Program-made: the position numbers and the translations under genes
Notes under the pieces: model-generated
Databases searched by the model: none
Seen by the model: the letters and a program-made list of their open reading frames with translations, nothing else
Told to the model about the DNA's origin: nothing
Origin: a virus
DNA length: 41,661 nt
Virus record (IMG/VR): IMGVR_UViG_3300045020_000060
Location: 1-41,661 of that record
Direction: 5' to 3' (one strand)
Shown here: one piece after another, positions 1,606-41,091 of the stretch
How positions within the stretch are numbered: the first letter of the stretch is position 1
How the letters are laid out: each line of letters starts with the position of its first letter

Positions 1606-1621
1606 AGCATAAGGATATGCT
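1606..1621 (+). promoter_or_regulatory. AGGA tetraloop ribosome-binding hairpin (portal)
   Basis: AGCATA-AGGA-TATGCT is a perfect 6-bp stem presenting the Shine-Dalgarno core AGGA as the tetraloop. The ATG at 1624 follows the stem by 2 bases. It is one of six such hairpins in this genome with different stem sequences. Confidence 0.7.
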
Positions 1622-1623
1622 CG

Positions 1624-3768
1624 ATGGCCGATGTCGCAAAGCGGTATCAGGATGAATTACCGCGCATCAAAAAGAACGTAGAGAAAGCATACGCTTACTT
1701 TAAGCCAAATTACGTTCGTTATCAGAAATTCCGTGAATTTGTATTCAATACTGCCCTTGATCCAGCAACAATTTCACTTCTTAAGACACTTAAAAAACCA
1801 CAGATAGAATTTAATATTCTCGAAGCCTATATATCGCGCTTACGAGGTGAATTCGCTAAACAAGAACCATCCATTGAAGTAATGGCAGGAGATGAGCAAC
1901 CTGTCGATACGGAAGTGATCAATGTCGTGCAGGGTCATTTGCGGCACATATTCTGTGAGGCCAACAAAGATTCTTGCGAGTACCAAGTTTACACAGACAC
2001 ATTATCTGGTGGCTTTTCTGTCATGAAGGTTTGGACAGAATATGCCCATGAAATGTCATTTAATCAGGTCATCAAGATGGGTCGTGCTTATGATCCGACT
2101 CTCTGTGGCTTTGATCCACTAGCACGTGCACCACATAAGGGTGATGGGAATTTTTGCTTTGAGATTTTCCCGATGCTTAAGGAAGACTTTGAACGCGAAT
2201 ATCCCAATATTAGTATATCCGATATTTCATTCGCACGTGAGATCAGTGGCTTCAATTGGTCTTATGTTAATAATGATCTTGAAATTGTTTTACTCTGTGA
2301 TTATTACGAGCGTAAACACAAACGTACCAAGATCGTGCAGTTAGCAGACCAACGTGTCATGACAATGGATGAATACGATAAGTTCCTTGCTGAATGGGAA
2401 TTATCCGGACGCATTGAACAGCCGCCTGCGATTATTGGTAAGCCACGCATGACAGATGTCGAGACAATCGAACGTTATAGGTTCATGCAGAACCGTGTGC
2501 TCGAACATGTGATAACGTCATTTAAGCAATTACCTTTAATCTTTATCGATGGCAACTCTGTGTTGATTCGTAATGGTGATGACAATTCTGTGCTGCAGAT
2601 GTGTCGGCCTTATGTGTATCACGCAGAAGGTATACAGAAGTTAAAAAACTTCGCTGGCCAGACACTCGGTAATGAACTTGAAAACATGATTCAGCATAAG
2701 TTCAAAGTGGCGAAAGAATCATTGCCACTCGAAGAAGATTATCTTGCGGCATATCGTGATATCCAACAAGCGGATATTTTGGTTTATAACTACAACAATG
2801 AATTAAATCCCGCACAGCCATTGCCGATACCACAAGAAGTGCAACGCATTCCCATTCCACCCGAAGTCACAAATACATTCATGGGTGCTGATGCATTAAC
2901 GCAGACTATCCTTGGTAATTTTGATATGGATCTTGGTAAGATGCCGCAGCAACAAGTGTCTGGTGTTGCAGTGATTGAATCAGTGACGCAATCAAATAGT
3001 GCAGCGATGCCATACATCGTTGGATTCTTGCAAGGCTTAAACCGTGTTGCGGAAATTATTGTGGATCTCTTACCAAAATATTTTATTACACCAAGAACTA
3101 TTCCTGTTGTGAAACTCGATGGCACACGTGATTACATTAAGATTAATCAACCGGGTGGAGTGAAATTAAATTATGGTAACAATGCACTGAACGTAAAGAT
3201 TGAAGCGGGTGTGAATTTCCATGTGCAGAAAACAAAAGCCATGGCACAGATTATTGCGTTGATGCAGGCGTCACCATTGTTTGCGCAGTTCATGAATACC
3301 GAAGGTCTTGCAGTGCTACTCGATAATGTTGAAATCAAAGGTATTGAACAGATCAAAGAACTCGCTGCTGCTTGGCAAGAAAAAATGCGTCAGATGCAAG
3401 AACAACAAATGCAACAACGTAATCCGCTTGAACAACAAGTTGAAGTTGAGAAAGCAAAGATCGAACAGAAAGCAGAACAATCCAAAATTGATCTTGAAGT
3501 TAAAGCGGCAGAACTTGCGATTGAAAAACAAAAAGCTGACACCGAACGCATGGTTGCAATTTCTAATATGGGTCTTGAACTTGATAAGCTCACTGTTGAA
3601 CATGCAAAAACACAAGCACAAGAAACACGTGCCGCGGTGGATCTTGCAATCAAGGATGCTGATCTCAGACAAACACATGCACACAATCGTGACAAACTTG
3701 TGCATGAAGTTGTGAAGTCAGCACGTGAACATAAAGTGAAAAGCACGGAGAAAAAATCCAATGACTAA
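1624..3768 (+). CDS. Portal protein (P22 gp1-like)
   Basis: A protein of 714 residues, near the 725 of P22 gp1, at the head of the capsid operon. The N-terminal part holds the family features I recognise: an early IEFNILEAYISRLRGEF region, then DPLARAPHKGDG. The C-terminal third (about residues 575-714) is a long, highly charged Q/E/K-rich coiled coil, corresponding to the helical barrel of P22-type portals. Twelve copies should form the DNA channel at the capsid vertex, docking the terminase outside and the gp4-like adaptor below. Translation begins behind an AGGA tetraloop hairpin. The 3' end overlaps the next small gene by 8 bases. Confidence 0.88.
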   Translation: MADVAKRYQDELPRIKKNVEKAYAYFKPNYVRYQKFREFVFNTALDPATISLLKTLKKPQIEFNILEAYISRLRGEFAKQEPSIEVMAGDEQPVDTEVINVVQGHLRHIFCEANKDSCEYQVYTDTLSGGFSVMKVWTEYAHEMSFNQVIKMGRAYDPTLCGFDPLARAPHKGDGNFCFEIFPMLKEDFEREYPNISISDISFAREISGFNWSYVNNDLEIVLLCDYYERKHKRTKIVQLADQRVMTMDEYDKFLAEWELSGRIEQPPAIIGKPRMTDVETIERYRFMQNRVLEHVITSFKQLPLIFIDGNSVLIRNGDDNSVLQMCRPYVYHAEGIQKLKNFAGQTLGNELENMIQHKFKVAKESLPLEEDYLAAYRDIQQADILVYNYNNELNPAQPLPIPQEVQRIPIPPEVTNTFMGADALTQTILGNFDMDLGKMPQQQVSGVAVIESVTQSNSAAMPYIVGFLQGLNRVAEIIVDLLPKYFITPRTIPVVKLDGTRDYIKINQPGGVKLNYGNNALNVKIEAGVNFHVQKTKAMAQIIALMQASPLFAQFMNTEGLAVLLDNVEIKGIEQIKELAAAWQEKMRQMQEQQMQQRNPLEQQVEVEKAKIEQKAEQSKIDLEVKAAELAIEKQKADTERMVAISNMGLELDKLTVEHAKTQAQETRAAVDLAIKDADLRQTHAHNRDKLVHEVVKSAREHKVKSTEKKSND

Positions 3769-3931
3769 AAACAAAATTACATTCAATGATTTACGTGATG
3801 GTGTTGCTGTGATGAAACATTACAAGATGCCAGTAAAAGAATATGAACGCCAAGTGCGTGAACATTTACGTGGCATGAAACAGCAAGATATGCGCAAAGA
3901 ATATCAGAAAATCTTTAAGGAACAAAAATAA
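3761..3931 (+). CDS. Small charged hypothetical protein between portal and scaffold
   Basis: A protein of 56 residues, MTKNKITF...KIFKEQK, overlapping the portal end by 8 bases. Its stop overlaps the next ATG (TAATG). It is strongly basic and predicted helical. No family was recognised. The tight overlaps on both sides and the purine-rich upstream sequence (CGGAGAAAAAATCCA) argue that it is translated. Its position suggests a head-assembly accessory role, but this is only contextual. Confidence 0.65.
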   Translation: MTKNKITFNDLRDGVAVMKHYKMPVKEYERQVREHLRGMKQQDMRKEYQKIFKEQK

Positions 3932-4239
3932 TGACAACAGAATTAATTATGAAAACTAAATTTGAATATATACAAGCAGTTAAATCATTACAAAAATATT
4001 ATCGTGACAGATTAATTCCACCAACAAAATTGCAGAACGCATACAATGATGCATTAGATAATTATCGTTATGCATTGGATTGTGCGGGTTATTACATGCC
4101 ATTACCACTTTATCCCTATTCATTAAAAGATAAACATACATGGAAGTACAAAGATGTCACGATTGATGGTAAAAAATTTGTTCGGGATATAGTCAATCCG
4201 GATTTTAAATATTCACATGTATCACCAATTGCAAAATAA
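3931..4239 (+). CDS. Hypothetical protein of the head operon
   Basis: A protein of 102 residues starting at a TAATG overlap, so probably translated by coupling. It is rich in Lys, Tyr and Asp, with LPLYPYSLKDKHTWKYKDV in the middle. There is no signal peptide or membrane segment, and no family was recognised. A second in-frame ATG seven codons downstream is possible. The following 160 bases are non-coding. Confidence 0.6.
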   Translation: MTTELIMKTKFEYIQAVKSLQKYYRDRLIPPTKLQNAYNDALDNYRYALDCAGYYMPLPLYPYSLKDKHTWKYKDVTIDGKKFVRDIVNPDFKYSHVSPIAK

Positions 4240-4320
4240 TTATTTTAAACACTATTGACAATAATTAATGTGAAGCTCAGCATGACACTGTACGCAATCA
4301 TGCGGTTAAAATGATCGACA

Positions 4321-4379
4321 CTCAATCGTTATTGAGGCAGACCGTGACGGGGCAATAGTTAACTTACAGGATGTAAGTT
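4321..4379 (+). other. Two hairpins in the 5' leader of the scaffold gene
   Basis: The 160-base gap before the scaffold gene contains CTCAAT-CGTT-ATTGAG (4321-4336) and AACTTACA-GGA-TGTAAGTT (4361-4379, 8-bp stem). Neither is followed by a T-run. The second ends 21 bases before the scaffold ATG. They may set the scaffold-to-coat translation ratio or mark an mRNA processing site. A TTGACA at 4255 has no convincing -10 box. Confidence 0.45.
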
Positions 4380-4400
4380 TAAGAAAAGGATTTTATTGGT

Positions 4401-5111
4401 ATGGATAACCAATTAGATGCAGGGACGCATCAACAGAGTCAGGATGTAGGATCAGCAGGGATCGCTGCTGTGCAATCAGCACAAGACGTGCAGGCTGCAG
4501 AGAAACTTATACCACAATCAGAGTTAAATAAGATTGTAGGCCGAGTCAGGGAAGAGGCAAGGCAAGATGGTTATGCGCGCGCACGTGCCGAAATGTCCGC
4601 GGTAGAACCACAGCAATCTGAACAACAGCAAGGATATCAATCACATTCACGTGAAAATATCGAGCAGCTGGTGGCGGAGAAGATCAAGGAGCAAGCTCAA
4701 CTCGAGGTTGCAAAAAAGATCGCAGGCGATTTCACTAACAAATTGTTAGCTGCTAAAGAAAAATATCCTGATTTTGAAGAAACAGTTGCTCAACTAAATC
4801 TGCCAACAATTCCGCAGATTGTGCACTGGGCGAATTCTCTGGATAACACAGCGGATGTAATGTACGACATAGCTAAGAATCCCGCCAAGTTTGCGAATAT
4901 CTTAATGCTATCGAACAACGCACCGCTGTTAGCCCAACGAGAATTGCAGAAATTATCTTCTTCAATTAAGAAGAACGAAGAAGCAAAGTCTGCTGCTGAA
5001 AATGTATCTGTCGGTGAACCATTATCCCAATTAAAACCTTCTGTAACTGGTACGGATAATGGCAAGCCTACGATACGTGATCTGCGCAAACAATCTTGGA
5101 TGCGTGCTTAG
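4401..5111 (+). CDS. Scaffolding protein (P22 gp8-like by position and composition)
   Basis: A protein of 236 residues between portal and coat, the P22 scaffold position. It has a Q/S/E-rich disordered N-terminus, a long charged helical middle (ENIEQLVAEKIKEQAQLEVA), and a short basic C-terminal segment (TIRDLRKQSWMRA) like the coat-binding helix-turn-helix of P22-type scaffolds. It would guide procapsid assembly and leave before DNA packaging. The ATG follows AAAAGGATTTTATTGGT. Identification rests on gene order and architecture more than sequence similarity. Confidence 0.7.
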   Translation: MDNQLDAGTHQQSQDVGSAGIAAVQSAQDVQAAEKLIPQSELNKIVGRVREEARQDGYARARAEMSAVEPQQSEQQQGYQSHSRENIEQLVAEKIKEQAQLEVAKKIAGDFTNKLLAAKEKYPDFEETVAQLNLPTIPQIVHWANSLDNTADVMYDIAKNPAKFANILMLSNNAPLLAQRELQKLSSSIKKNEEAKSAAENVSVGEPLSQLKPSVTGTDNGKPTIRDLRKQSWMRA

Positions 5112-5164
5112 TATAGTAAGCGAAACCATTATCTCTCACATAAATGGATTTGGGAGATTTATAA

Positions 5165-6475
5165 ATGGCATTCCCTACTAATATTTTGCAAACAGTACAG
5201 ACTTATCAAGAGTCTGAACTGGCTTACTTACTTAACTTATGTTGCTTCGTAAGTACAGCGAATACACGGTTCAAAGATTTCGAAAAATTAGAAGCTAACT
5301 TGGGCGACACAGTTACATTTGATCTGCCGCCACGTTATGTAACAACCAATGGTCTCGTTGCATCATTTCAAGCATCACAACAACGTGTACAACCATTAGT
5401 TGTAGATCAAGCGGTTAACACTTCTTACACCTTCACTAACCAACAGTTCATTTTCAATGTACGCGAATACATGGAAAAATTCGGTATGTCAGCGGTGACT
5501 GAAATTGGTTCTAACGTTGAAGCGAACATTGCATTGAATGCAATTTCAGGTGTACAGAACAACAATCCGCAATCACCTAACTATGGCACCATTGATACAT
5601 CCTCTGGACCGTATCGTTTCTACAATGACGGTGTCACTAGCATTAGTTCATTCGGTCAGTTAGCGAATATGTTAGCTGCATTCCGTAACTACGGTGCTGT
5701 GAAAGATAACTTAAAAGTTTATCTATCAGATATTGCTGTACCACAAATCGTTAACTCAGGTTTAAACCAATTTACTCTGAAACGTAATGATGAAATGGCG
5801 AATTCCTGGGAAGTGGGTAACTGGATGGGTGTTGAGTTTTATCAATCAAACTTATTAGCTATTCAAGTTGCAGGTGATGTTGGTGTCAATGCACAAGTGT
5901 TAACACTGGTATCTACCAATGATCCAACAGGTGCTAACGTTACACAGTTGACGTTCTCAGGTGCAACTGCCAGTGATGCGAATGCAGTATTTGCTGGTGA
6001 TTTATTCCAGTTCCAAGATAACGTATCTGGTCAACCCAATATGCGTTATCTGACCTTCATCGGCCATGTACCTTGCGCGCAACCCGTGCAATTCCGTGCA
6101 ACAGCCGCTGCTGCAGCAAATGGTTCTGGCGATGTCACTATTTCTATTGAGCCGCCATTGGTATGGCAATCCGGTAATCAAAACCAAAACCTTAACAATG
6201 CACTCGCGGCAGGTATGCAAGTTAAAGCATTACCTTCACATCGTGCAGGGTTAGTAGTGGGTGGTAATGCCTTGTTCCTAGCGATGCCACGTTTACCAGA
6301 TCAAGCGCCATTCCCGACCAGTAACAAATCAGATCCTGATACTGGTGTGTCATTGCGTTTGACCTACGGTACTTTGTTCGGTCAAAACCAATTCGGTTGG
6401 ATTCATGACATCATTTGGGGTTCTACAGTGGTGCCTGAATATTCCATGCGCATTGCATTCCCATTAACACAATAA
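5165..6475 (+). CDS. Major capsid (coat) protein, P22 gp5-like
   Basis: A protein of 436 residues, against 430 for P22 gp5. It directly follows the scaffold gene. The N-terminus (MAFPTNILQTVQTYQESELA) and the DTVTFDLPPRY segment near residue 50 fit the HK97-fold coat proteins of the P22 group. It should form the icosahedral shell. The ribosome binding site GGGAG lies in the 11-base loop of an ATAAAT/ATTTAT stem (5142-5164 region), 7 bases before the ATG. The protein is rich in Ala, Asn, Gln and Val without membrane segments, as expected for an abundant structural protein. Confidence 0.85.
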   Translation: MAFPTNILQTVQTYQESELAYLLNLCCFVSTANTRFKDFEKLEANLGDTVTFDLPPRYVTTNGLVASFQASQQRVQPLVVDQAVNTSYTFTNQQFIFNVREYMEKFGMSAVTEIGSNVEANIALNAISGVQNNNPQSPNYGTIDTSSGPYRFYNDGVTSISSFGQLANMLAAFRNYGAVKDNLKVYLSDIAVPQIVNSGLNQFTLKRNDEMANSWEVGNWMGVEFYQSNLLAIQVAGDVGVNAQVLTLVSTNDPTGANVTQLTFSGATASDANAVFAGDLFQFQDNVSGQPNMRYLTFIGHVPCAQPVQFRATAAAAANGSGDVTISIEPPLVWQSGNQNQNLNNALAAGMQVKALPSHRAGLVVGGNALFLAMPRLPDQAPFPTSNKSDPDTGVSLRLTYGTLFGQNQFGWIHDIIWGSTVVPEYSMRIAFPLTQ

Positions 6476-6493
6476 CAATCAAGGATGACGACT

Positions 6494-7294: not shown

Positions 7295-7298
7295 CCAT

Positions 7299-7316
7299 AA
7301 GCATAAGGATATGCTT
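7299..7316 (+). promoter_or_regulatory. AGGA tetraloop ribosome-binding hairpin (gp4-like adaptor)
   Basis: AAGCATA-AGGA-TATGCTT is a perfect 7-bp stem with the Shine-Dalgarno core as the loop. The ATG at 7318 is one base beyond the stem. It is the longest of the virion-operon examples. Confidence 0.72.
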
Positions 7317-7317: not shown

Positions 7318-8019
7318 ATGTCATACACGGTCACAAAGCTTATCACGAATGCGTATTATCTATCTGGAATCGTCAGTCGCAGCTTACAAACTGTGACTGG
7401 CGATCAGCTACAAGATGGTCTTGATCTACTTAATGCATTGCTTGCCACAAAGACAGTAAATGTACGGTTAATACCGTATTTCAGTGTGTATAACTTCACT
7501 GCTGTAGTGGATCAAGAAGAATATTTCATTCCGAATCTCGTGGCTGTTGAAACGTTTACGTTCTTTATCCAGAACGTACGGTATTCCATGTTGCCGCAGA
7601 AACGTATTACTTACTTTGGTTCTGGTCGTATTAATGATATTGACTCACTACCATTTAGTTGGCACATCGAACGTGCAGTCGGTGGTGCGAATCTTTACAT
7701 CTATTTTGTTCCGAACATTGCATATCCATTGCAGATTACCGGTAAATTTAGCTTAAGCAATGTTGTGCTTGGCCAAGATTTATTACTGACGATGGATCAG
7801 TTCTACATTGAATATCTACGTTATGGTCTCGCAGAACAGATCGCTGCTGAATATAACATTCCATTGCAACCGCAAGCGAATGAACGTCTCAAAGAAATGG
7901 AAAAGATGATCACGGATATTTCACCGCCTGACTTGCAGATGGTGAAAATGTCGTCATTGCAGAAGAATGTGGCTATAAATTACGCAGATGTCAATATCGG
8001 TCGAGGTTGGAGGCCGTAA
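7318..8019 (+). CDS. Head-to-tail adaptor (P22 gp4-like packaged-DNA stabilisation protein)
   Basis: A protein of 233 residues, longer than P22 gp4 (166). It starts with the gp4-type opening MSYTVTKLITNAYYLSGIVS followed by DQLQDGLDLLNALL. The family forms a dodecameric ring below the portal that seals the packaged head and receives the gp10 hub. It lies directly before the gp10-like gene, as in P22. Translation starts behind an AGGA tetraloop hairpin. Confidence 0.75.
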   Translation: MSYTVTKLITNAYYLSGIVSRSLQTVTGDQLQDGLDLLNALLATKTVNVRLIPYFSVYNFTAVVDQEEYFIPNLVAVETFTFFIQNVRYSMLPQKRITYFGSGRINDIDSLPFSWHIERAVGGANLYIYFVPNIAYPLQITGKFSLSNVVLGQDLLLTMDQFYIEYLRYGLAEQIAAEYNIPLQPQANERLKEMEKMITDISPPDLQMVKMSSLQKNVAINYADVNIGRGWRP

Positions 8020-9722: not shown

Positions 9723-10045
9723 CGATACCCAGTTTAGTACCGAGCAGGTTCCCTAATTTCTTTGATACACAGTTTGTGGATAAGCAAGGGTATTTGACAG
9801 ACCCATGGCGGCAGATTTTGCAACAATTATTCACGCAGTTGCAGCTCAATATGGGCAATGAAGGACTTGTAGCACCTTCGCAAACGAATCCTAATATGCT
9901 TATAATACAGAATAATCAGAATGCAGCTGGTGAAAATACTGCAGCATATGGCACACTGATTTACAATACAGATACTAATATGCTAAATGTGGCACTCGAT
10001 AATGGATCAGGAGCGCCAGTGTTTTACCCGATTACGACGACATAA
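9719..10045 (+). CDS. Small virion-associated protein
   Basis: A protein of 108 residues starting within the ATGA overlap with the hub gene, without its own strong ribosome binding site, so probably coupled. It contains FFDTQFVDKQGYLTDPWRQ, a pattern (FvD..GyLT.PW) found in small proteins after gp10-like genes in many podoviruses, then a Q/N-rich part and a beta-type C-terminus. It occupies the place where P22 has its needle gene, but it lacks the long coiled coil of gp26. The function is unknown. Confidence 0.6.
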   Translation: MTIPSLVPSRFPNFFDTQFVDKQGYLTDPWRQILQQLFTQLQLNMGNEGLVAPSQTNPNMLIIQNNQNAAGENTAAYGTLIYNTDTNMLNVALDNGSGAPVFYPITTT

Positions 10046-10054
10046 GGATATGTC
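10039..10054 (+). promoter_or_regulatory. AGGA tetraloop ribosome-binding hairpin (10057 gene)
   Basis: GACATA-AGGA-TATGTC is a perfect 6-bp stem, 2 bases before the ATG at 10057. It overlaps the end of the preceding coding region (stop at 10043-10045), so ribosomes ending there would open it. Confidence 0.7.
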
Positions 10055-10056: not shown

Positions 10057-10683
10057 ATGAGTTTCTTATCAGGTTTAAATCCATTCCGCGGTATTCAGGA
10101 AATATTTGGTACTGGAGAGAAATATAGAAATCCCAGTGATGTTGCGATGGGTTATACCAATCAGATTCCGGATATCCTAAAGAAATACTATGGTCCTTAT
10201 GCTGAAGCAGGACAGAATGCATTACCGAGTTTGTCATCTGAATATTCGAAGCTCATGTCTAATCCTGGCGAACTTATGTCACGCTTGGGTGCAGGTTATC
10301 AACAATCACCTGGATTTCAGACTGCATTGAAAGAATCTCTCCAGGGTGCTAACCAAGCAGCAGCTGCAGGTGGCATGGCAGGTACTCCCTTAGCGCAACG
10401 TTATGGTGCTGACATAGCACAACAAATGTCGATGCGTGACTTCCAAGATTATTTGCAACAGGCATTAGGTTTATATGGATCAGGATTATCTGGGCAGCAA
10501 CATATGTATGATGTAGGTTCCGGTGCTGCCGGTAACTTAGCAGATAGTTTAAGTCAGCATCTATGGGGACAAGGTGGCTTAGCATTTGGCGGACAGAATA
10601 TCCGTAACCAACGTAGCCAAGGTATGTTCCCTGATCTTTTACGCATGGGCATTAACTATGGTGCTTCAGGAGGGTTCGCATAA
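10057..10683 (+). CDS. Internal virion / DNA ejection protein (P22 gp7 position)
   Basis: A protein of 208 residues, rich in Gly, Ala, Gln and Ser (GANQAAAAGGMAGTPLAQRY; GLYGSGLSGQQ), with an N-terminal MSFLSGLNPFRGIQEIFG. It is the first of three genes between the hub and the fibres, where P22 encodes ejection proteins gp7, gp20 and gp16. These are carried in the head and leave with the DNA to help cross the envelope. Sequence similarity to gp7 is not obvious, so the role is assigned by gene order and composition. Its stop overlaps the next ATG (TAATG). Confidence 0.6.
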   Translation: MSFLSGLNPFRGIQEIFGTGEKYRNPSDVAMGYTNQIPDILKKYYGPYAEAGQNALPSLSSEYSKLMSNPGELMSRLGAGYQQSPGFQTALKESLQGANQAAAAGGMAGTPLAQRYGADIAQQMSMRDFQDYLQQALGLYGSGLSGQQHMYDVGSGAAGNLADSLSQHLWGQGGLAFGGQNIRNQRSQGMFPDLLRMGINYGASGGFA

Positions 10684-20552: not shown

Positions 20553-20633
20553 GACCAATTCCTTTTGGTTCACTGCTAATCCGTTAGCAGTTTGGCTAAT
20601 TCTAACAAGCGTATCTTATGAAGTTAATAGCAG

Positions 20634-20924: not shown

Positions 20925-20940
20925 GCAATAAGGATATTGC
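20925..20940 (+). promoter_or_regulatory. AGGA tetraloop ribosome-binding hairpin (20942 gene)
   Basis: GCAATA-AGGA-TATTGC is a perfect 6-bp stem, one base before the ATG at 20942. Confidence 0.7.
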
Positions 20941-20941: not shown

Positions 20942-21088
20942 ATGCCATTGATTAGTGGAAAGCGTGCAAAAACCAAGAAAGGTTTTTCCGAAAATGTCCG
21001 GCGTGAAGTTCATGCTGGTAAACCTGTTAAACAAGCTGTTGCTATTGCTTATTCTAAAAAGCGTGGCGGCAAAAAACGTAAGAAATAA
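20942..21088 (+). CDS. Small basic phage protein
   Basis: A protein of 48 residues: MPLISGKRAKTKKGFSENVR, then EVHAGKPVKQAVAIAYS and a Lys/Arg/Gly tail. I recognise this as a small family common in podoviruses and prophages (pattern S.N...E..AGKP.KQA.AIA). The function is unknown. Its charge suggests nucleic-acid binding or packaging inside the head. The start is fixed by the AGGA hairpin directly upstream. The next small gene follows 11 bases after the stop. Confidence 0.8.
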   Translation: MPLISGKRAKTKKGFSENVRREVHAGKPVKQAVAIAYSKKRGGKKRKK

Positions 21089-21995: not shown

Positions 21996-22451
21996 CTAGA
22001 ATGGGATTGGGTCATTTAAGCCATCATGCGTATCATTCACAACAGGTGGCACAAATACTTCCTTTAAATAATCCTTAATCACATTCTTCGCAGGATAGAT
22101 TTTAGTACCATCTTTGCTAGGTGTCGCTGGCTGCAATACTACAATGCCATAGACGCGTTTGCCAATACATTCATCTGCAGTTAATGACATTTGGTCATGC
22201 GCTAATCCAGCACCTGCCATGAAGTGTTCTGTCTTCCATTGCATTGATTCAAGATCCATCAGATTATCATAGATGAACCACATGCGTCCTTGATCATCCA
22301 AATGTTCGAGGGTCAAGACAATCTTATTGTTGCCATTTTCTGATACGCCTTCCTTGGCATGTTTTACATAGAATAAATATGTACCGTCTGGCAAATATTG
22401 ATGCTGGATTTTCTCATCCTTGGGAACACGTCTTGATAATGTTAAAGCCAT
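21996..22451 (-). CDS. DUF669-like single-strand DNA-binding protein with SSB-type tail
   Basis: A protein of 151 residues. The pattern PDGTYLFYVKHAKEGVSENG, NKIVLTLEHLDDQG and VYGIVVLQPATPSKDG resembles the DUF669 family found beside phage recombinases. The last residues, NDPIPF, after an acidic stretch, copy the C-terminal tip of bacterial SSB proteins, which recruits partner proteins. It probably coats ssDNA during recombination or replication. It lies next to Gp157 and a RecA-fold ATPase. Translation begins behind a 7-bp AGGA tetraloop hairpin. Confidence 0.65.
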   Translation of the reverse strand: MALTLSRRVPKDEKIQHQYLPDGTYLFYVKHAKEGVSENGNNKIVLTLEHLDDQGRMWFIYDNLMDLESMQWKTEHFMAGAGLAHDQMSLTADECIGKRVYGIVVLQPATPSKDGTKIYPAKNVIKDYLKEVFVPPVVNDTHDGLNDPIPF

Positions 22452-22469
22452 AATAATATCCTTATTATT
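22452..22469 (-). promoter_or_regulatory. AGGA tetraloop ribosome-binding hairpin (DUF669-like gene)
   Basis: Read leftward, AATAATA-AGGA-TATTATT is a perfect 7-bp stem that abuts the ATG at 22451. It overlaps the last bases of the Gp157 gene (stop at 22465-22467), so upstream translation can open it. Confidence 0.7.
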
Positions 22470-23001
22470 TGATTACTAAACGCATAGTTTGCTTTAAACA
22501 AGCGCCCGGTACAACTACCCCGGCCTTTAAATCTTCCTTGATTGCGTCTTTATCAATGTAGACGCTTGTGCGATATTCTTTGTACTTTTCCGGAATAAAT
22601 GCCGGGTCAAGGTTGCCATCCATAGTTTCAGGATTCACGACACTAGGATTATTTTTCTGGCGGCTGATCACAAACTGTGGGCATGAGATTTTGGTAATAC
22701 CACAGCGTTCCATATTCTCATGCATGTAGTTCTCCCAGCGTATAATCTGGTTTTCGAGCGCTTCTTCGCGTTTCTTCAAACGTGCCAGAAGTTCCTTCCG
22801 GGCAGTTTCAATCGCTGCCCGTTCGAGTTCGAGGTTCTCAATCCATTTCGTCGTGTTGATGCACTTCTGGTTAATGTCAGGCACAAGAGCATCCAATCGT
22901 GCCATGGCTTGCTCGTTCACTTCACCTGTTTCAGGGTCGAATGATTCCTGAAACAGACGTTGATGTTCATTGGCTAGTTCATAGAGTGATAGGTTACTCA
23001 T
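22465..23001 (-). CDS. Gp157-family recombination-associated protein
   Basis: A protein of 178 residues with the signature order of the Siphovirus Gp157 family: N-terminal SLYELANEHQ; a central coiled coil (IENLELERAAIETARKELLA, KKREEALENQI); MERCGITKISCPQFVISRQK; NPSVV; then IPEKYK and KDAIKEDLKAGVVVPGA near the end. The family sits beside SSB-like and RecA-fold genes in many phages; its biochemical role is not established. GAGGA lies 9 bases upstream of the ATG. The start overlaps the stop of the ATPase gene. Confidence 0.85.
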   Translation of the reverse strand: MSNLSLYELANEHQRLFQESFDPETGEVNEQAMARLDALVPDINQKCINTTKWIENLELERAAIETARKELLARLKKREEALENQIIRWENYMHENMERCGITKISCPQFVISRQKNNPSVVNPETMDGNLDPAFIPEKYKEYRTSVYIDKDAIKEDLKAGVVVPGACLKQTMRLVIK

Positions 23002-25705: not shown

Positions 25706-26084
25706 GCAGCCAGCATTGATGCAGCTCTTGAAAGACATGTTTGCTATGTTCTGCGTGGTTTATGGTGATCATTGGCGTAAGCGTTTCACTGACGATCTGA
25801 TGGTAAAAGGTTTTTATACCCTTTGGCATGACGCATTGAAAGATTATCCTATGGCATTGATTCAGGCTGTGTGCGCCAAGGTTTATAAGCAAAATACATT
25901 TCCACCTTCGTTGGCTGAATTTCTTGAGATACTTCGCGCAGACTATAAGCAATGGCTACTTGATGAACAATCCAAGCAACGGCGCATTGAAGAATCACTT
26001 AGCCCAGAACAACTCGAACGCAATAAGGCTAAGATTGCGGATATCAAACAAAAACTCATGAGGAAATTACATGTCAATCGTTAA
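25635..26084 (+). CDS. Replication protein, possible helicase loader (lambda P-like)
   Basis: A protein of 149 residues with AAGGGG 6 bases before its ATG, starting inside the initiator gene. The middle (LLKDMFAMFCVVYGDHWRKR; GFYTLWHDALKDYPMALIQA; FPPSLAEFLEI) fits the pattern of small phage proteins encoded after an O-like initiator that load the host replicative helicase, including the typical FPP.laEFL motif. The C-terminus is a charged helix. No ATPase motifs were seen, as in lambda P. The assignment combines context and motif. Confidence 0.55.
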   Translation: MEIIATKLRPNSSNEPTPTWDGNKQPALMQLLKDMFAMFCVVYGDHWRKRFTDDLMVKGFYTLWHDALKDYPMALIQAVCAKVYKQNTFPPSLAEFLEILRADYKQWLLDEQSKQRRIEESLSPEQLERNKAKIADIKQKLMRKLHVNR

Positions 26085-26376
26085 CATTATTCGCGCCAGG
26101 ACTTCTGGTCATAGTTTGCACATAGTACCAAAACGAATACAATCGCCAAGGAGCGACGATCAAAAGACCCGCTACCCTACATACACCTTTGCGGAGATCG
26201 TGGCACCATTAGCATCAGGATTGGAATTTAGGCGGTCTGGATGGCCATGTGAACGTTTGTCTGTCGATAGGATCACTGGCAAGCTGATTATCAAGACTGG
26301 AACAATTTGTTATTACTGGCAACCAAGTATAGAGGACGTACAAGCCGATGACTATGAAGAATGTCACAGAGCATAA
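26071..26376 (+). CDS. DUF2829 / Tad2-like protein (possible Thoeris anti-defence)
   Basis: A protein of 101 residues starting at 26071 with GAGG 7 bases upstream. After a 35-residue basic N-terminus comes FAEIVAPLASGLEFRRSGW and then, near the end, WQPSIEDVQADDYEE. This fits the DUF2829 pattern F.EAl..L..G..v.R.gW followed by W.PS..D.lA.DW. One DUF2829 protein, Tad2, sequesters the signalling molecule of the Thoeris defence system; other members are uncharacterised. The N-terminal extension is unusual. It overlaps both replication-operon neighbours. Confidence 0.6.
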   Translation: MSIVNIIRARTSGHSLHIVPKRIQSPRSDDQKTRYPTYTFAEIVAPLASGLEFRRSGWPCERLSVDRITGKLIIKTGTICYYWQPSIEDVQADDYEECHRA

Positions 26377-26813: not shown

Positions 26814-26840
26814 GGCGGTGTTAGAGCACCGCCAGTTTTT
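26814..26840 (+). terminator. Rho-independent terminator after the replication operon
   Basis: GGCGGTG-TTAGAG-CACCGCC forms a perfect 7-bp GC-rich stem followed by AGTTTTT. It separates the replication operon from the lysis genes. Anti-termination or a separate promoter would be needed to read through. The gap 26726-26856 also contains GTATC-ATCGC-GATAC and an AT-rich TGTATATATTTT box that could be a -10 element. Confidence 0.8.
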
Positions 26841-26856
26841 GGCCAAGGATATGGCT

Positions 26857-27045
26857 ATGGTCGAATTATCTAATAAATGTTCAAGTTGCTGTCATGCCGC
26901 TGTTTATGCCATAGTGGGATATAGCTGCGCCTATTACCGTTGCAATGATTGCGATCAGGCGTGCGAGATTATTTCTGAATTCAAGGATGAATCACGAAAT
27001 GACAGACTATCTCCAATCCGCGAAACAATTAATTTCTCTTCATGA
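26857..27045 (+). CDS. Small zinc-ribbon protein
   Basis: A protein of 62 residues starting at 26857 behind AAGGA. Two Cys pairs, CSSC (about 8-11) and CNDC (about 29-32), flank AVYAIVGYSCAYYRC and would bind one zinc. Similar short ribbons occur near phage lysis genes, but I cannot name a function. The C-terminal 18 residues overlap the lysozyme start. The ribosome binding site sits in the loop of a GGCCA-AGGATA-TGGCT stem. Confidence 0.65.
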   Translation: MVELSNKCSSCCHAAVYAIVGYSCAYYRCNDCDQACEIISEFKDESRNDRLSPIRETINFSS

Positions 27046-32691: not shown

Positions 32692-32711
32692 TCTAATGCG
32701 TGAGGGCGATT

Positions 32712-35475: not shown

Positions 35476-35486
35476 TGGTGAAATTC

Positions 35487-35804: not shown

Positions 35805-35813
35805 TAAAACTCC

Positions 35814-36343: not shown

Positions 36344-37044
36344 AGTGTTAACCACTCCGGTTTTTTACGGTTAGTCCAGTTAGTACAGTAATAATTAGGA
36401 ATGCCCATGCGCAACTCTGCCTGACAGCCTCGGCAATTAGCGATGCGGCGTTTGATTACGGCGGCATAGTAGTTGCGATAGCAAATGACAGGTGGCTGTA
36501 TAATAGGTTTTCCACCAGCAAGTTTATTTGGTAAAGCAACAATATACCGCTTCGGCATTACGAGTGGGAATGGCAATACCGTGTCAGCACTAGCATAGGA
36601 ATCTAATTCTTTGACGTATGGATGCTGTGGCAATATCGGCATCTTGATTCGTGACCATGACCAAATGTAGAGATGCTTTTTATAGAACTGCCATTTGGTA
36701 GAGTCTTCATTAAGATCCTTGCGGAGATTAAAGCGGTAATACCATTCAGCAAGTGAATCATTGAGGTATTGCTGCAGCCACTTGTAATTGGCGATGCACT
36801 GTGATGCCCAGGTAATCCATTCCGCTAAGCCAGTGATGTTTAATTTAGACTTTAGTGGCACAAGAGCATGGTTATCCATTGCGACAGTATCTGTCATGCC
36901 ACCGGGTGTGCGTAGATCATTAATTAGCATATGGTGCACTTCACAGAGCACCTGTGCGATGTCCTTGATCTGCCGCTTGAGTGACGTATTGTCAAGTAGC
37001 TGTGCACTAATGGCAGGATCATTGTCGAGGATATAAATGGTCAT
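36340..37044 (-). CDS. Phage protein of the ILDNDP...YRNYY family
   Basis: A protein of 234 residues. The N-terminal MTIYILDNDPAISAQLLDN and QIKDIAQVLCEVHHML, the middle EWITWASQCIANYKWLQQYL, and the C-terminal CYRNYYAAVIKRRI with W-TNRKKPEW match a widespread phage family, sometimes labelled pyrimidine-dimer glycosylase-like, though its activity is not established to my knowledge. A Cys-containing insertion (CRGCQAELRMGIPNYYC) splits the C-terminal motif and could bind zinc. It overlaps both neighbours by an ATGA. Confidence 0.65.
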   Translation of the reverse strand: MTIYILDNDPAISAQLLDNTSLKRQIKDIAQVLCEVHHMLINDLRTPGGMTDTVAMDNHALVPLKSKLNITGLAEWITWASQCIANYKWLQQYLNDSLAEWYYRFNLRKDLNEDSTKWQFYKKHLYIWSWSRIKMPILPQHPYVKELDSYASADTVLPFPLVMPKRYIVALPNKLAGGKPIIQPPVICYRNYYAAVIKRRIANCRGCQAELRMGIPNYYCTNWTNRKKPEWLTL

Positions 37045-37181
37045 GCTATATGCTCCGCAATAGTTCGGTAATAATGAATACGCTTAGCCAAAATGGGTGC
37101 CATGCGTACGATGCGCCCAGCACTGACAATGAAGCCTGCGCATAAGTAATGAGTACACACACGGTATAGACCGTCCTTCAT
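37041..37181 (-). CDS. Conserved small protein (MKDGLYRV family)
   Basis: A protein of 46 residues: MKDGLYRVCTHYLCAGFIVS then AGRIVRMAPILAKRI. I recognise this as a very common small protein in phages of Proteobacteria (pattern .DG.YRV.T.YLCAGFvv..GrV...APIL). The function is unknown. GAGG lies 7 bases before the ATG. The stop overlaps the next start (ATGA). Confidence 0.8.
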   Translation of the reverse strand: MKDGLYRVCTHYLCAGFIVSAGRIVRMAPILAKRIHYYRTIAEHIA

Positions 37182-37499
37182 AGTGTTACCTCATAATAAT
37201 TTGGCGCAACCCCAAGACAAAACTTTTTAGCTCCGTACCCCTAGCTCCGGAGACCGTTGTTTAAGGTTAGAGGAAACCTCTTGTAGGTTGCATAAACTGG
37301 TGGCCATTCTTTGTGTGAACCAATTACTAGGAGTGCGCGCGCTCCGTTCTTTTGGTAAATGGCCGTAAATCATTGGCAATCGGCCAGTATCGAGCTGGCT
37401 TTATCGAGATCATCCACGATCTAACTGCTGGACGGCTATGCGTGACCAGCCACACGATTCGAACATGCTTAATGCGTCCTACGCCGCGATTGCCCTAAA
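37182..37499. ncRNA. Structured intergenic region, possible non-coding RNA
   Basis: This gap of 318 bases has no convincing gene but is full of pairing. Elements are AGAGG-AAA-CCTCT (37270-37282); GGCCATT...AATGGCC (37302-37364) enclosing ACCAA/TTGGT and a GGAGTGCG/CGCGCTCC near-palindrome; GGCCG/CGGCC (37361-37385); CCAG/CTGG; AGATC/GATCT; and an 8-bp closing pair GGCAATCG (37375-37382) with CGATTGCC (37488-37495). A T-arm-like GCATG-TTCGAAT-CGTGT is present but no tRNA can be completed. GCATAAACT at 37290 recurs in the 40492-40799 region. Confidence 0.5.
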
Positions 37500-37817
37500 T
37501 CATTGCTCAATAATGCAGTCATCAAAAGTTGCAAAATCCACAAAAGAAGAACCTTGCCGCGATATTGCTTGCATAAGTTTCTTTGTGTCAATCTTAAATA
37601 GCGTCGGTGATTCTGTAGCCATTTTATGCCACTTTTCACCGAGGTCACATATGTTTGCTAATCTGCACATAGCTCGTGATATTGGCACAAATCTAGCATC
37701 GGGCTTACCATGGACTAATCGTAATAAATGCTTTGGTTCAGTAATAACTTTTCCTTCCCACATGAGCGCAACAATTTCATCATTGCCAGCGAAAAAATTA
37801 TCTGGGTCAGCTGACAT
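37500..37817 (-). CDS. Hypothetical protein
   Basis: A protein of 105 residues starting at 37817 with GAGGA 8 bases upstream. It contains NDEIVALMWEGKVITEPKHL and FVPISRAMCRLANICDLGEK. It is mixed helical and strand. No family was recognised. Its stop is the left border of the structured region 37182-37499. Confidence 0.6.
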   Translation of the reverse strand: MSADPDNFFAGNDEIVALMWEGKVITEPKHLLRLVHGKPDARFVPISRAMCRLANICDLGEKWHKMATESPTLFKIDTKKLMQAISRQGSSFVDFATFDDCIIEQ

Positions 37818-38169
37818 TGTTGATATCCTCAACTTTAACTAGCCCTTGCTCGATTAAGTATATGAGCATTTTGGCGCGAGTATTAGCTTCATTTTCATTA
37901 TCAGTAGTAATCATATCCTCGCCATTCGGCAAAATAGCTCGACAAAAATATGAGCCGCTGAAATCTTTTCCGCTGACTATTTCTTTTTCAAAATACTCGC
38001 CAAGTTCGCCGACTGTGAATGCTGAATAATTACTATCCATAAAAAATGGCATTTCTGATCTATAAACAACGCCACCAATAGCATAATAAAATAATGATTC
38101 TTGATTAACGCCCAATTCCTTTAATCGTTGCGCATATTCGAGCGAGCATACTTGCTGGTTAAGTTCCAT
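37807..38169 (-). CDS. Conserved phage protein (LKELGVxQESLFY family)
   Basis: A protein of 120 residues starting at 38169 with AAGGA 8 bases upstream. The pattern CSLEYAQRLKELGVNQESLF, YSAFTVGELGEYF and NEANTRAKMLIYLIEQGLV is a widely distributed phage family of unknown function. Several acidic residues in the C-terminal helix are conserved in the family. It overlaps both neighbours. Confidence 0.78.
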   Translation of the reverse strand: MELNQQVCSLEYAQRLKELGVNQESLFYYAIGGVVYRSEMPFFMDSNYSAFTVGELGEYFEKEIVSGKDFSGSYFCRAILPNGEDMITTDNENEANTRAKMLIYLIEQGLVKVEDINNVS

Positions 38170-38413
38170 TGTTGGTTTCCTTATCATAATTATTCCTGCG
38201 TATAAAATCTTTCGTGCATGTATAGCATGTCATAATTCGATATTCGTCGTGTTCAGGACACTTTTCAGGTGCCGGCACGAATGTCATAGTTACATAATAC
38301 GTACCAGCTAAGATCAACATGTTTCTGTATAGCCAGCCCCCTGGAGCTTCTAGTCGATGTGTAAAATCAAAGGCAGTATCACCTTCTTGTTCGTATACTT
38401 TTTTCCAACTCAT
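38159..38413 (-). CDS. Conserved small phage protein (PGGWLYR family)
   Basis: A protein of 84 residues. MSWKKVYEQEGDTAFDFTHR then LEAPGGWLYRNMLILAG is a common small phage pattern (W..R...PGGWLYR). The C-terminal half has CPEHDEYRIMTCYTC, possibly metal-binding, an addition to the usual core. It starts in an ATGA overlap with the preceding gene. Confidence 0.72.
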   Translation of the reverse strand: MSWKKVYEQEGDTAFDFTHRLEAPGGWLYRNMLILAGTYYVTMTFVPAPEKCPEHDEYRIMTCYTCTKDFIRRNNYDKETNNGT

Positions 38414-38586
38414 AGTGGATTCTCATAAATTTGCACATCAACAACTGCATCCGCACACCAATCACGCATGGAAATTGGCAATCCCATTTTATTAGCACGT
38501 TCACGATGTTCAGTAGTTAATTGCCGAGCACAGCGGTTATCGCAACTGGGATTGCTACAAAATGATCTATCCATGTAGTGAATCAT
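38410..38586 (-). CDS. Small Cys-rich conserved phage protein
   Basis: A protein of 58 residues: MIHYMDRSFCSNPSCDNRCA then RQLTTEHRERANKMGLPISM. The C-x4-C-x3-C cluster and the RQLT...A...GLP segment match small cysteine proteins frequent in phage accessory regions. GGAG lies 8 bases before the ATG at 38586. It overlaps both neighbours through ATGA junctions. Confidence 0.72.
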   Translation of the reverse strand: MIHYMDRSFCSNPSCDNRCARQLTTEHRERANKMGLPISMRDWCADAVVDVQIYENPL

Positions 38587-38786
38587 GACGCTTTCTCCGG
38601 TTCAATATTGGCTTTGATGAGCTCAAGATAAATGCTCATTTCTAGGCGTGCAACGAATGGCACACCGCCGCTTGCTGGAAAGCCATGGTTATCAAAGTGC
38701 ATCGTCTTAAGCTGTGGGAATTTATCATATAGCAGAGCACAGGCAGCTTCCGCAGCAGCAGTAACAATCTTAGGATATTGGTGCAT
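38583..38786 (-). CDS. Small hypothetical protein
   Basis: A protein of 67 residues with AGGGA 8 bases upstream. It contains AAAEAACALLYDKFPQLKTM and a C-terminal RLEMSIYLELIKANIEPEKA. It is probably a small helical globular protein. No family was recognised. Confidence 0.6.
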   Translation of the reverse strand: MHQYPKIVTAAAEAACALLYDKFPQLKTMHFDNHGFPASGGVPFVARLEMSIYLELIKANIEPEKAS

Positions 38787-38788
38787 AC

Positions 38789-39070
38789 TTATTTCCCTAG
38801 ACGTTTGGGTTGTAATGTAACGACAGGTTCAGCTTCTGGAGAGACATCAATAATATTGTCGTCAGATGTTTTGCTATAATCGAGATAAGCAATACTGGGT
38901 TTTTTCTCAAGGATTTTAGCATAATCAGCTTCAACTCTGAGTGTGATGATGACTTCACTTGCAAGATCCCCTATAGCTTGCGCTTGATGCGGTGATATCT
39001 GACCAGTGTAAGTGTCTTCCATTGCTTTCGTTAGGAGCTTTCGTAGATCACAGATATTTTCAATTGCCAT
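38789..39070 (-). CDS. Conserved phage protein (IxDLRxLL family)
   Basis: A protein of 93 residues starting at 39070 with AAGG 9 bases upstream. IENICDLRKLLTKAMEDTYT, GQISPHQAQAIGDLASEVI and RVEADYAK fit a common family of small helical phage proteins (I.dLR..L...i.....G.i....A.ai..la..i....kvE.d). It is thought to be regulatory only by composition; the function is unknown. Confidence 0.7.
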   Translation of the reverse strand: MAIENICDLRKLLTKAMEDTYTGQISPHQAQAIGDLASEVIITLRVEADYAKILEKKPSIAYLDYSKTSDDNIIDVSPEAEPVVTLQPKRLGK

Positions 39071-39614
39071 GTTTAAGTACCTTATCAATTTTATAAAGCA
39101 TTTTTGCGAATTGCATTAATAACTTCCCAACAATAGTACCAGGTTTGTAATTAGGCGGTAGATAATGTTCGCGAATATATTGGTTAATTTTACGTGCAGA
39201 ATTACTTTTAATCAGTAAATATTTGTCATAATTTGCTATGCGATATTGCTGATTTCTTGCAAGGATATTTTTCTTATTCTTAGCATAGTTATTTTGGCGA
39301 TAACCTATCTGACACTGTTTACATTTATAGCGTTGTTTGCGACCTTCATAGCCATTTTTATTCACATGTTCTAGCGTTAAAAAGCCATGCTTACTGCAAT
39401 GTGTCACATAGCCTTCTGGAAAATTCCTACTACTGGGCGGTGCATTATTTCTAGCAATTAATTTCCGTATTTTGCAACGACGGTTATAGCGTTCTTTGAT
39501 AATCTTACGACATTCAATGCAGAGGTATGTTGGCCTATTGTTGCGTCGCAATATGTGACATTGCTGGAGGGTTAATTCACCATGTTTGCGACAAACTTTG
39601 ACGATGACGGCCAT
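39060..39614 (-). CDS. Protein with two HG-L-T zinc fingers
   Basis: A protein of 184 residues. It carries two copies of the finger, CRKHGELTLQQC...YLCIEC (about residues 8-34) and CSKHGFLTLEHV...YKCKQC (about 75-101). Each is followed by a basic R/K/N/Y-rich stretch. The C-terminus is helical and basic. The architecture suggests DNA or RNA binding, perhaps a degenerate homing-type nuclease accessory domain, but no HNH or GIY-YIG core is visible. The ribosome binding site is weak, so translation may depend on the preceding gene, which ends 3 bases earlier. Confidence 0.65.
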   Translation of the reverse strand: MAVIVKVCRKHGELTLQQCHILRRNNRPTYLCIECRKIIKERYNRRCKIRKLIARNNAPPSSRNFPEGYVTHCSKHGFLTLEHVNKNGYEGRKQRYKCKQCQIGYRQNNYAKNKKNILARNQQYRIANYDKYLLIKSNSARKINQYIREHYLPPNYKPGTIVGKLLMQFAKMLYKIDKVLKHGN

Positions 39615-39617
39615 AGG

Positions 39618-39983
39618 TTACCAATAGTAGACAAATGGCTTCCGTGCGAGTGGTTTTGCGATGCTATCCAAAGCATCATCATTCATGGTTTTGGTTTTCT
39701 GCAAGATTATGCGTGTCTTTTGACGCTCGGGGCGAGTCATAAACATATTGCGATGCCAGCGTGGTGCTGAGCTATAGTTAATTTGGTAACGGTGTTTGAG
39801 GTGCTTTGGCACATCGTTCATGGCATCAGCATAAGGGTATTTTCTTTGTGCTTTATGAACAGCTGGCCAAACATCCATACCTTGTTTGATAAGTTCATCA
39901 ACGTAAGCATCACGTAATTCGCGTAGCCGATGCTCTTTGCGAGTAGCTTTTCTGTTGTACTTTTCTTTATAAGTGTCAGCCAT
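39618..39983 (-). CDS. Conserved basic phage protein ending in KPFVYYW
   Basis: A protein of 121 residues, basic. An N-terminal RKATRKEHRLRELRDAYVDE, a middle SSAPRWHRNMFMTRPERQKT and the end ARKPFVYYW fit a common phage family (W...fMTRP.Rr......P......rKPh.YYW). The function is unknown; the charge suggests nucleic-acid binding. The upstream Shine-Dalgarno is poor (CTGGTAATAATT), again suggesting coupling. Confidence 0.72.
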   Translation of the reverse strand: MADTYKEKYNRKATRKEHRLRELRDAYVDELIKQGMDVWPAVHKAQRKYPYADAMNDVPKHLKHRYQINYSSAPRWHRNMFMTRPERQKTRIILQKTKTMNDDALDSIAKPLARKPFVYYW

Positions 39984-39988
39984 AATTA

Positions 39989-40153
39989 TTACCAGGATCT
40001 TTTTTTAACTTTTATATAGCGTGCACAACGTAAACACCAACCATAACGTTCAATATAATATTCAGCAGTGTCAGGATCTGTTGTTTTACAGAGATAAATA
40101 CTCTCGCGATCAATGTTATGTGACCATAACCAACACCATAATAATTTTAACAT
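39989..40153 (-). CDS. Small Trp/Cys protein
   Basis: A protein of 54 residues: MLKLLWCWLWSHNIDRESIY ... ERYGWCLRCARYIKVKKRSW. An aromatic N-terminus and a C-terminal GWCLRCARYI (CxxC) with a basic tail. It could bind metal through C7 and the CxxC. The start overlaps the preceding stop (TGATG), so it is probably translated by re-initiation. Confidence 0.65.
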   Translation of the reverse strand: MLKLLWCWLWSHNIDRESIYLCKTTDPDTAEYYIERYGWCLRCARYIKVKKRSW

Positions 40154-40491
40154 CACTGCACCGTTTTAGGATCTTGCTGAAAACTATTCATGGCATCCAT
40201 GGTGAGCTCAATGCCAACATCAAACAATTGCTTAACCAGCTGCCGCCTTTCATCAACGGACATGTTTTCACGTAAGAATGTATTGATTACACGTGCTAAT
40301 ATGATCGCATTAAATTTAATGGCAACAGAGCACAAAAAGTTAATGGTAAGTACTTCATTATCGTTGAACAGTTCACTAATTTCATTAGCTGCTGGTAGTG
40401 CCCCATAATAAGCGTCTAACATGCCTTTTAGCATTGTCGCCTGTAAGACTTGTTGCTTTTCCGTTAACTTTTCTCTGCTGACGTTAAACAT
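40153..40491 (-). CDS. Helical hypothetical protein
   Basis: A protein of 112 residues with AGGAG 6 bases upstream. It is all helical (LTEKQQVLQATMLKGMLDAY; ERRQLVKQLFDVGIELTMDA) with a hydrophobic middle (LCSVAIKFNAIILARVI). It ends DPKTVQ, like the 35203-35475 protein (SNKTVQ), and both have a DNA ending ACGGTGCAGT; distant duplication is possible. No family was recognised. Confidence 0.6.
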   Translation of the reverse strand: MFNVSREKLTEKQQVLQATMLKGMLDAYYGALPAANEISELFNDNEVLTINFLCSVAIKFNAIILARVINTFLRENMSVDERRQLVKQLFDVGIELTMDAMNSFQQDPKTVQ

Positions 40492-40799
40492 GTACTGCTC
40501 CTATATATGGCGCCGATGACACACAGGAATACTGCTGCGGGAATGCACATGTCATCGGCATAAACTATTGTCTCAGCTGTGTGCTCAACTCTTTACTGGC
40601 CCGGAGCACTCTACGCGATGTTTTCACATTTCTGCTTTCGCTTCATCAGGCGTATAAATGCCAGTCTAGACCTACCTATCATCTGAGACTCGGGTAGGAA
40701 TCGCTCTTTATAAACTTGGAGCGGGTGTGCTAAGCACATTGTATTCCCAATGCTAACCTAGGAATCATTGGTAGCCTATCCCTTCCGGGCCCGCATAAA
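40492..40799. ncRNA. Structured intergenic region flanked by a 12-bp direct repeat
   Basis: There is no convincing gene in these 308 bases. Pairings seen are GCCGATGACA (40512-40521) with TGTCATCGGC (40550-40559), 10 bp; GGCCCGGA (40598-40605) with TCCGGGCC (40784-40791), 8 bp over 178 bases; CCAATG (40747-40752) with CATTGG (40766-40771); and TGTGC-TAA-GCACA near 40726. GCATAAACTATT occurs at 40558-40569 and 40793-40804, bracketing the inner part. It lies between the AlpA-like gene and the rest of the leftward operon, so it is transcribed as a long leader. Confidence 0.5.
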
Positions 40800-40988
40800 C
40801 TATTTCTGCAGTATGTGACGCTCAATCCAGGCCAAAACATCTGCATAGTCATAACGTACTGACCGACCAAGCTTACGATACGGTATAGCATCATCGCCGC
40901 CTGTACAACGTTTGCGCTGCAGCCAAGAGACTGATTTCCGTACCATAGCAGCGACTTCAATTTCTGTTAATAGTTTTATGTCGGTCAT
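40800..40988 (-). CDS. AlpA/excisionase-type helix-turn-helix protein
   Basis: A protein of 62 residues: LLTEIEVAAMVRKSVSWLQR, then IPYRKLGRSVRYDYADVLAW. This is the winged-helix HTH_17 fold of AlpA and phage excisionases. It is the first gene of the leftward accessory operon, directly after a good promoter. With no integrase in the genome, a transcriptional regulator is more likely than an excisionase. Its target may be the divergent region 40989-41090. GAGTGG lies 8 bases upstream. Confidence 0.78.
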   Translation of the reverse strand: MTDIKLLTEIEVAAMVRKSVSWLQRKRCTGGDDAIPYRKLGRSVRYDYADVLAWIERHILQK

Positions 40989-41011
40989 TTAGTTACCACT
41001 CATTTGTCCTG

Positions 41012-41040
41012 AGAATACATGCTATAGTTGTAATAGTCAA
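41012..41040 (-). promoter_or_regulatory. Leftward promoter of the accessory operon
   Basis: On the minus strand, TTGACT and TATTCT are separated by exactly 17 bases, 24 bases upstream of the AlpA-like ATG. It probably drives the whole 40988-34872 gene string. Confidence 0.7.
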
Positions 41041-41073
41041 GAATAAGTTGTATTATGTTTTAATAGTTTGCAT

Positions 41074-41091
41074 TAACAAAAGGATTTGTTA
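41074..41091 (+). promoter_or_regulatory. AGGA tetraloop ribosome-binding hairpin (41091 gene)
   Basis: TAACAAA-AGGA-TTTGTTA is a perfect 7-bp stem in which the last paired A is the first base of the ATG at 41091. Confidence 0.72.

Follow-up and report, generated by a model that had tools for sequence, protein, structure and literature searches.

Why would a phage place the ribosome binding sites of several of its genes in the loops of perfect hairpins, and what might read them there? The question is raised by IMG/VR record IMGVR_UViG_3300045020_000060 (G000 in our set), a 41.7-kb virus record with a P22-like virion module, which was analysed over its whole length of 41,661 nucleotides and is referred to below as the window. 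Here, six start codons follow a perfect stem of 6 or 7 bp with the tetraloop AGGA. In the original prediction, made from the window alone, this arrangement was attributed to selected RNA structure, with CsrA as a candidate reader. Compensatory base changes in orthologous leaders, in excess of those in shuffled controls, uphold the claim of selection, and the feature belongs to one phage family, being general neither to phages nor to the host. On balance, we lean towards the explanation that the hairpins are CsrA-type repressor sites overlapping the Shine-Dalgarno (SD) sequences of choke-point virion genes, through which host CsrA would gate virion production.

AGGA hairpins at start codons of the window

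The six hairpins, on both strands, were all found where the original prediction had placed them, with perfect arms and a start codon directly after. The first (AGCATA-AGGA-TATGCT, 6 bp, 1606–1621, plus strand) lies over the portal SD (gene at 1624–3768, plus strand; PHROG phrog_156, E=1.4e-54), the second (AAGCATA-AGGA-TATGCTT, 7 bp, 7299–7316, plus strand) precedes a gene of no assigned function (7318–8019, plus strand) located immediately 5' of the head-closure gene, and the third (GACATA-AGGA-TATGTC, 6 bp, 10039–10054, plus strand) precedes the DNA-ejection gene (10057–10683, plus strand; phrog_598, E=3.6e-8). Furthermore, GCAATA-AGGA-TATTGC (6 bp, 20925–20940, plus strand) stands before an open reading frame (ORF) for a basic protein of 48 aa at 20942, while the gene for the single-strand DNA-binding protein (SSB; 21996–22451, minus strand; phrog_378, E=2.3e-6) is preceded by AATAATA-AGGA-TATTATT (22469–22452, minus strand), a weak 7-bp stem of A and U only with a minimum free energy of -0.8 kcal/mol. 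The last hairpin, TAACAAA-AGGA-TTTGTTA (7 bp, 41074–41091, plus strand), overlaps the ATG of a conserved 67-aa ORF (41091–41294). In each case GGA occupies the apical loop, as it does in CsrA/RsmE-type sites. Stem and ATG are separated by 0–2 bases, save for the last stem, which shares the A of its ATG. One detail of the original prediction needed a minor adjustment: the arms, described as differing, do so in the outer three to four pairs, whereas the inner three pairs (ATA/TAT) are identical in five of the six, giving these a common inner core (ATAAGGATAT).

No other tetraloop is nearly as common as AGGA among the perfect stems of at least 6 bp in the window, where it closes six of 24 such palindromes. 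In 400 dinucleotide shuffles of the window, such hairpins numbered 0.055 on average and one at most, as compared to the six observed, and the mean fell to 0.015 for those with a nearby ATG; the shuffle control proposed with the original prediction thus came out in its favour. When upstream and downstream arms were re-dealt, a procedure that leaves all arm compositions intact, the expectation was 0.145 among the window's own AGGA sites and 0.03 among its start-linked AGGA sites. Since only the outer three to four pairs vary within the window, the strong evidence for covariation comes from relatives.

Conservation of pairing in relatives

More than 100 related loci, many of them fragments, were collected by Hc3 (head-closure) and portal searches of IMG/VR and by a search of genome contigs, while a scan of viral contigs with the terminase large subunit (TerL) returned no matches. 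Among 1901 start-linked AGGA leaders of these relatives, stems of at least 5 bp were observed 84 times and stems of at least 6 bp 58 times, against 4.0 and 1.07, respectively, expected with re-dealt arms. Sixty of the 68 distinct AGGA stems of at least 6 bp sit at a start codon, compared to 13% of all AGGA, and thereby show the overlap with the SD or start region that is typical of CsrA/RsmE-type sites. On the Hc3 tree, hairpins occur in several clades and are dense in one clade of 30.

The relatives retain the pairing, and not AGGA alone, while the arms change in orthologous leaders, as had been predicted. The ejection leaders carry AGTCTA/TGGACT, GACATA/TATGTC, CGTTAAA/TTTAACG, ACCTAAA/TTTAGGT, GACTAAA/TTTAGTC and ATGATTTA/TGAATCAT, and the portal leaders AGCATA/TATGCT, ACTGAAA/TTTCAGT and TGTTTAAA/TTTAAACA; the orthologous leaders of the 7318 gene are also paired. 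Covariation is strongest for the ejection gene, where the paired fraction at positions 3–8 is 0.65 as against 0.46 in shuffles, none of 2000 shuffles reaching the observed value. The portal, TerL, 7318 and 14291 genes are likewise above shuffles, while the coat and scaffold leaders are not. Within the paired subset of ejection leaders, all four Watson-Crick types occur at pair 5 and likewise at pair 6; these rows were selected as paired, the unbiased test being the shuffles on all AGGA leaders, and kinship among the sequences may somewhat inflate the covariation tests.

The hairpins are unevenly distributed over the virion genes. Stems of at least 6 bp are found in 25/58 AGGA leaders of ejection genes, 7/28 of portal genes and 5/13 of TerL genes, and are nearly avoided by coat (1/27) and scaffold (0/29); the preferred genes encode low-copy parts that no virion can do without. 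The TerL hairpins of relatives include ATTTAACA-AGGA-TGTTAAAT, and in L037, L057, L065, L068 and L069 the apparent TerL start is a TTG preceded by an AGGA hairpin, a combination that possibly acts as a double brake on translation.

No hairpin was found in 213 leaders of other phages (P22, lambda, DSL-LC05, Vibrio 1.183, BA3 and P26218), nor in 242 gene leaders of a host genome that carries a family member (G197, described below), or 193 with stricter spacing. The 0/193 and 0/213 counts rule out a host-wide or a general phage trait.

A loop rule resembling that of CsrA sites

The loop takes one of two forms, A-AGGA-U or an open AAGGAA/AAGGAC hexaloop. All 60 tetraloop hairpins are closed by an A-U pair. 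In the hexaloops of hairpin-bearing records, the unpaired base 5' of AGGA is A in 19/19, as compared to 47% in hairpin-less leaders, and the base 3' of AGGA is A or C and never G (0/19), where G makes up 36% of the non-U background; G is avoided here even though it would yield AAGGAG, a stronger SD. An A thus stands two bases before GGA (ANGGAN) independently of pairing, as in CsrA/RsmE-type sites, and the hexaloop rule, as read from the sequences, fits such a site.

The optimum of CsrA binding, as derived by in vitro selection (SELEX), is not a requirement of natural CsrA sites. The full SELEX consensus, ACA before RGGA and UGU after it, is not seen overall in the phage leaders, with ACA-AGGA-UGU present in a few of them; in the selected RNAs, ACA before GGA was invariant (PMC7652899).

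Family members in Legionellales chromosomes

Alignment of Hc3 located the family in 3/143 genomes from the order to which a Legionella metagenome-assembled genome (MAG) belongs. In two of these three the match lies in a long chromosomal contig, in one instance 1.75 Mb into a contig of 3.3 Mb. Among 369 genomes drawn from the class, a full-length match was found in the Legionella MAG only, four others being partial and distant. Two family members reside in the Legionellales genomes G197 and G195 (loci L158–L165) and occupy separate parts of the tree, one of them within the hairpin-rich clade. The chromosomal element of G197, a prophage, comprises terminase, portal, scaffold, coat, Hc3 and ejection genes together with a resolvase; its Hc3 shares 81% identity with that of one hairpin-rich clade member, and it bears five AGGA-type hairpins at starts, whereas the leaders of its host have none. 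CsrA is encoded in both genomes, with four CsrA-family matches in G197 and seven in G195, and the main G197 protein matches L. pneumophila CsrA (sequence in PMC12889724) over the first 56 residues. As the window groups with one of the two chromosomal members in a 43-row set, Legionellales is our best guess for its own host.

csrA genes within the family

Eleven relatives carry a csrA gene themselves (L033, L034, L035, L036, L147–L151, L153 and L155). Hairpins are present in 2/11 of these records as compared to 32/55 of the others (Fisher p=0.02), as if the gene and the SD hairpins were alternatives. The contrast does not survive phylogenetic pairing and is only a lead, because independent pairs are too few and many records are fragmentary.

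A putative CsrA switch and its alternatives

In the model that we favour, the hairpins would be RNA leader elements in the mRNAs of a P22-like (podovirus-type) family infecting Legionellales, each with a stem of free sequence topped by A-AGGA-U or by an open AAGGAA/AAGGAC hexaloop, such that the loop would be an SD and a CsrA/RsmE-type ANGGAN protein site at once. CsrA from the host, or in some relatives perhaps from the phage itself, would bind the loop and block the 30S subunit, with the portal, DNA-ejection, terminase and head-completion genes as the repressed set and coat and scaffold largely devoid of hairpins. On exit of the host from its replicative phase, RsmY and RsmZ would take up CsrA, the leaders would be released and virions completed, and virion completion would in this manner be tied to the transmissive phase of the host. 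CsrA gains support as the candidate from the ANGGAN loop, from the presence of family members in CsrA-bearing Legionellales and from the published binding of L. pneumophila CsrA to an AAGGA loop that covers the ribosome binding site of fleQ (PMC5338858). Binding of CsrA to the phage leaders, repression as the sign of the effect, and its timing are proposed by analogy with such systems, and the arrangement suggests that a host life-cycle switch could control phage assembly. A broader version, namely that the whole family puts translation of its choke-point virion genes under the host CsrA switch, completes virions only when a Legionella-type host leaves the replicative phase, and has largely dropped the hairpins in csrA-bearing relatives, is tentative and falls a little short of persuading us.

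Several observations weigh against a CsrA switch. The window has no recognisable csrA gene, and only the family points to Legionellales as its host. Some hairpins of the window have little stability (-0.8 to -5.1 kcal/mol), and folding in a longer context yields folds that compete with them. At -2, the C that is optimal in SELEX is not favoured (10/60 versus a background of 18%), and a second 5' GGA hairpin, as in the bridging seen with glgC, shows no family-wide enrichment (5/100 versus 2–3%). The phage stems, mostly 6–9 bp, are longer than most SELEX-derived CsrA hairpins, which mostly have four or fewer contiguous pairs (PMC7652899). Finally, hairpins on low-copy virion genes could equally reflect passive tuning of translation.

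This last point introduces the main rival, in which the RNA structure would act without any protein, the SD in the loop setting translation efficiency or mRNA stability and perhaps keeping the low-copy virion proteins below coat and scaffold. It accounts for the choice of genes, as low-copy virion genes are favoured and coat and scaffold nearly avoided, yet we consider it unlikely: neither the invariant unpaired A nor the absence of AAGGAG from the hexaloops is explained by it, nor is the lack of such hairpins in host genes and six unrelated phages, and a weaker SD would be a simpler route to the same effect. In its favour, binding of the 30S subunit would be affected only modestly by weak stems around an SD.

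Less probable still is a different RNA-binding protein, whether a phage translational repressor or another host protein, as the reader of the AGGA hairpin. A fixed loop on a free stem would suit any loop-reading protein, and the window contains many uncharacterised small ORFs; however, no candidate gene tracking the hairpins turned up in a gene content that was not systematically compared, and the loop obeys the rule known for the CsrA family, of which the hosts encode several members. We attach very little weight to a nuclease-related element, where the hairpin would either protect phage mRNA or be cut in its loop and so control turnover. In T4, nucleases are known to target SD motifs of phage mRNAs, RegB cutting within them, but no RegB-like gene was present among the proteins scanned, and the host-linked distribution would be left without a reason. 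DNA-level palindromes (operators or promoters) or chance are hardly credible, since, despite the inner core common to five window hairpins, the arms vary freely and covary with pairing kept and the orientation follows the gene, AGGA facing the downstream start in 60/68, which excludes a DNA operator, while the shuffles and re-dealt arms exclude chance.

Additional hairpins and gene content of the window

A looser hairpin had also been proposed for the 26857 gene, and it is present as TGGCCA-AGGATA-TGGCTA with one G-U pair (26839–26856, plus strand) before the ORF at 26857. By contrast, the ATAAAT/ATTTAT stem proposed for the coat gene could not be confirmed above chance, the scan giving other imperfect stems. 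A weaker 5-bp hairpin (ATTCA-AGGA-TGAAT, 26979–26992, plus strand) precedes an internal start at approximately 26999 (146 aa). Folding of 1580–1650 revealed another strong hairpin, the loop of which contains GGA (TGCGTCAC-taggatg-GTGGCGCA, 1580–1602, plus strand), 23 nt 5' of the portal SD hairpin, which is a possible second CsrA contact for the portal leader; bridging by a CsrA dimer would use two sites at a distance of 10–60 nt. Additionally, an 8-bp hairpin at 4360–4378 (AACTTACA-GGA-TGTAAGTT, fold z-score of -3.4) presents a CsrB-like CAGGAUG some 20 nt 5' of the scaffold SD. On the minus strand, the 8-bp hairpin ACTGCTAA-CGGA-TTAGCAGT (20572–20591; ANGGAN with C as N) lies about 20 nt 5' of the AAAAGGA SD of the 19497–20573 gene, the true start of which is probably an ATG 3' of the listed GTG.

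The virion module further includes the scaffold (from 4401), coat (from 5165) and Hc3 (from 8043) genes, and the terminase small and large subunits start at 32700 and 33351, respectively. A Mu Gam-like gene occupies 22465–23001, and a predicted Tad2-like (anti-Thoeris) protein, barely above the Pfam cut-off, is encoded at 26071–26376. The protein of 67 aa encoded at 41091–41294, itself behind a hairpin, is 57–70% identical across the family, which is unusually conserved for a small phage ORF. No Rfam family was detected on the window besides two tRNAs. Megablast of the window against phages gave zero matches, the phage collection holding no close relative, and the best among named relatives are distant, at 24–29% identity in Hc3.

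Comparison with known systems

CsrA repression through GGA hairpins at the ribosome binding sites (RBSs) of bacterial genes is already known, as are phages that carry csrA. In the literature searched, no phage family is described that equips its structural genes, genome-wide, with covarying hairpins of the CsrA type, nor were characterised phages of Legionellales found, an order for which a phage family is identified here. If the favoured model is true, translation of phage mRNA would read host physiology directly; the many diverged natural hairpins also form a set from which to learn what a CsrA-family protein accepts.

The closest counterparts are bacterial leaders. In L. pneumophila, CsrA acts as a repressor on fleQ, where it binds AAGGA and AGGA loops, one of which lies over the RBS (PMC5338858). 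The phage leaders share with fleQ and with glgC of E. coli (PMC7652899) the GGA in a hairpin loop, the preceding A (ANGGAN) and a site over the RBS, and the host order of the family encodes CsrA. They differ in that the targets are phage genes, several per genome, in their longer and perfect stems (6–9 bp), and in that CsrA binding is here suggested by analogy. Unlike glgC, with its hairpin 5' of the SD, phage leaders usually have one hairpin only, which itself constitutes the SD.

The sponge RNAs offer a second comparison, given the RsmZ loop CCCCGAAGGAUCGGGG (PMC12889724) and the CsrB repeats CAGGA(U/A/C)G (PMC7652899), which the phage hexaloop rule resembles. The AAGGAU core is common to RsmZ/CsrB and the phage hairpins, and U, A or C, not G, follows GGA in open hexaloops; however, RsmZ and CsrB are small-RNA decoys with many loops, whereas the phage hairpins occur singly in mRNA leaders.

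Phage-encoded CsrA/RsmA proteins (PMC8450108, PMC7366521) likewise link phages to the Csr system, as do the csrA genes of the eleven relatives, but the window has likely targets rather than the protein, and the csrA-bearing relatives mostly lack hairpins. Lastly, in Salmonella, host CsrA restrains prophage release through cI (PMC12371270). There, as proposed here, host CsrA limits phage production, although it does so via expression of cI, and structured phage leaders are not described.

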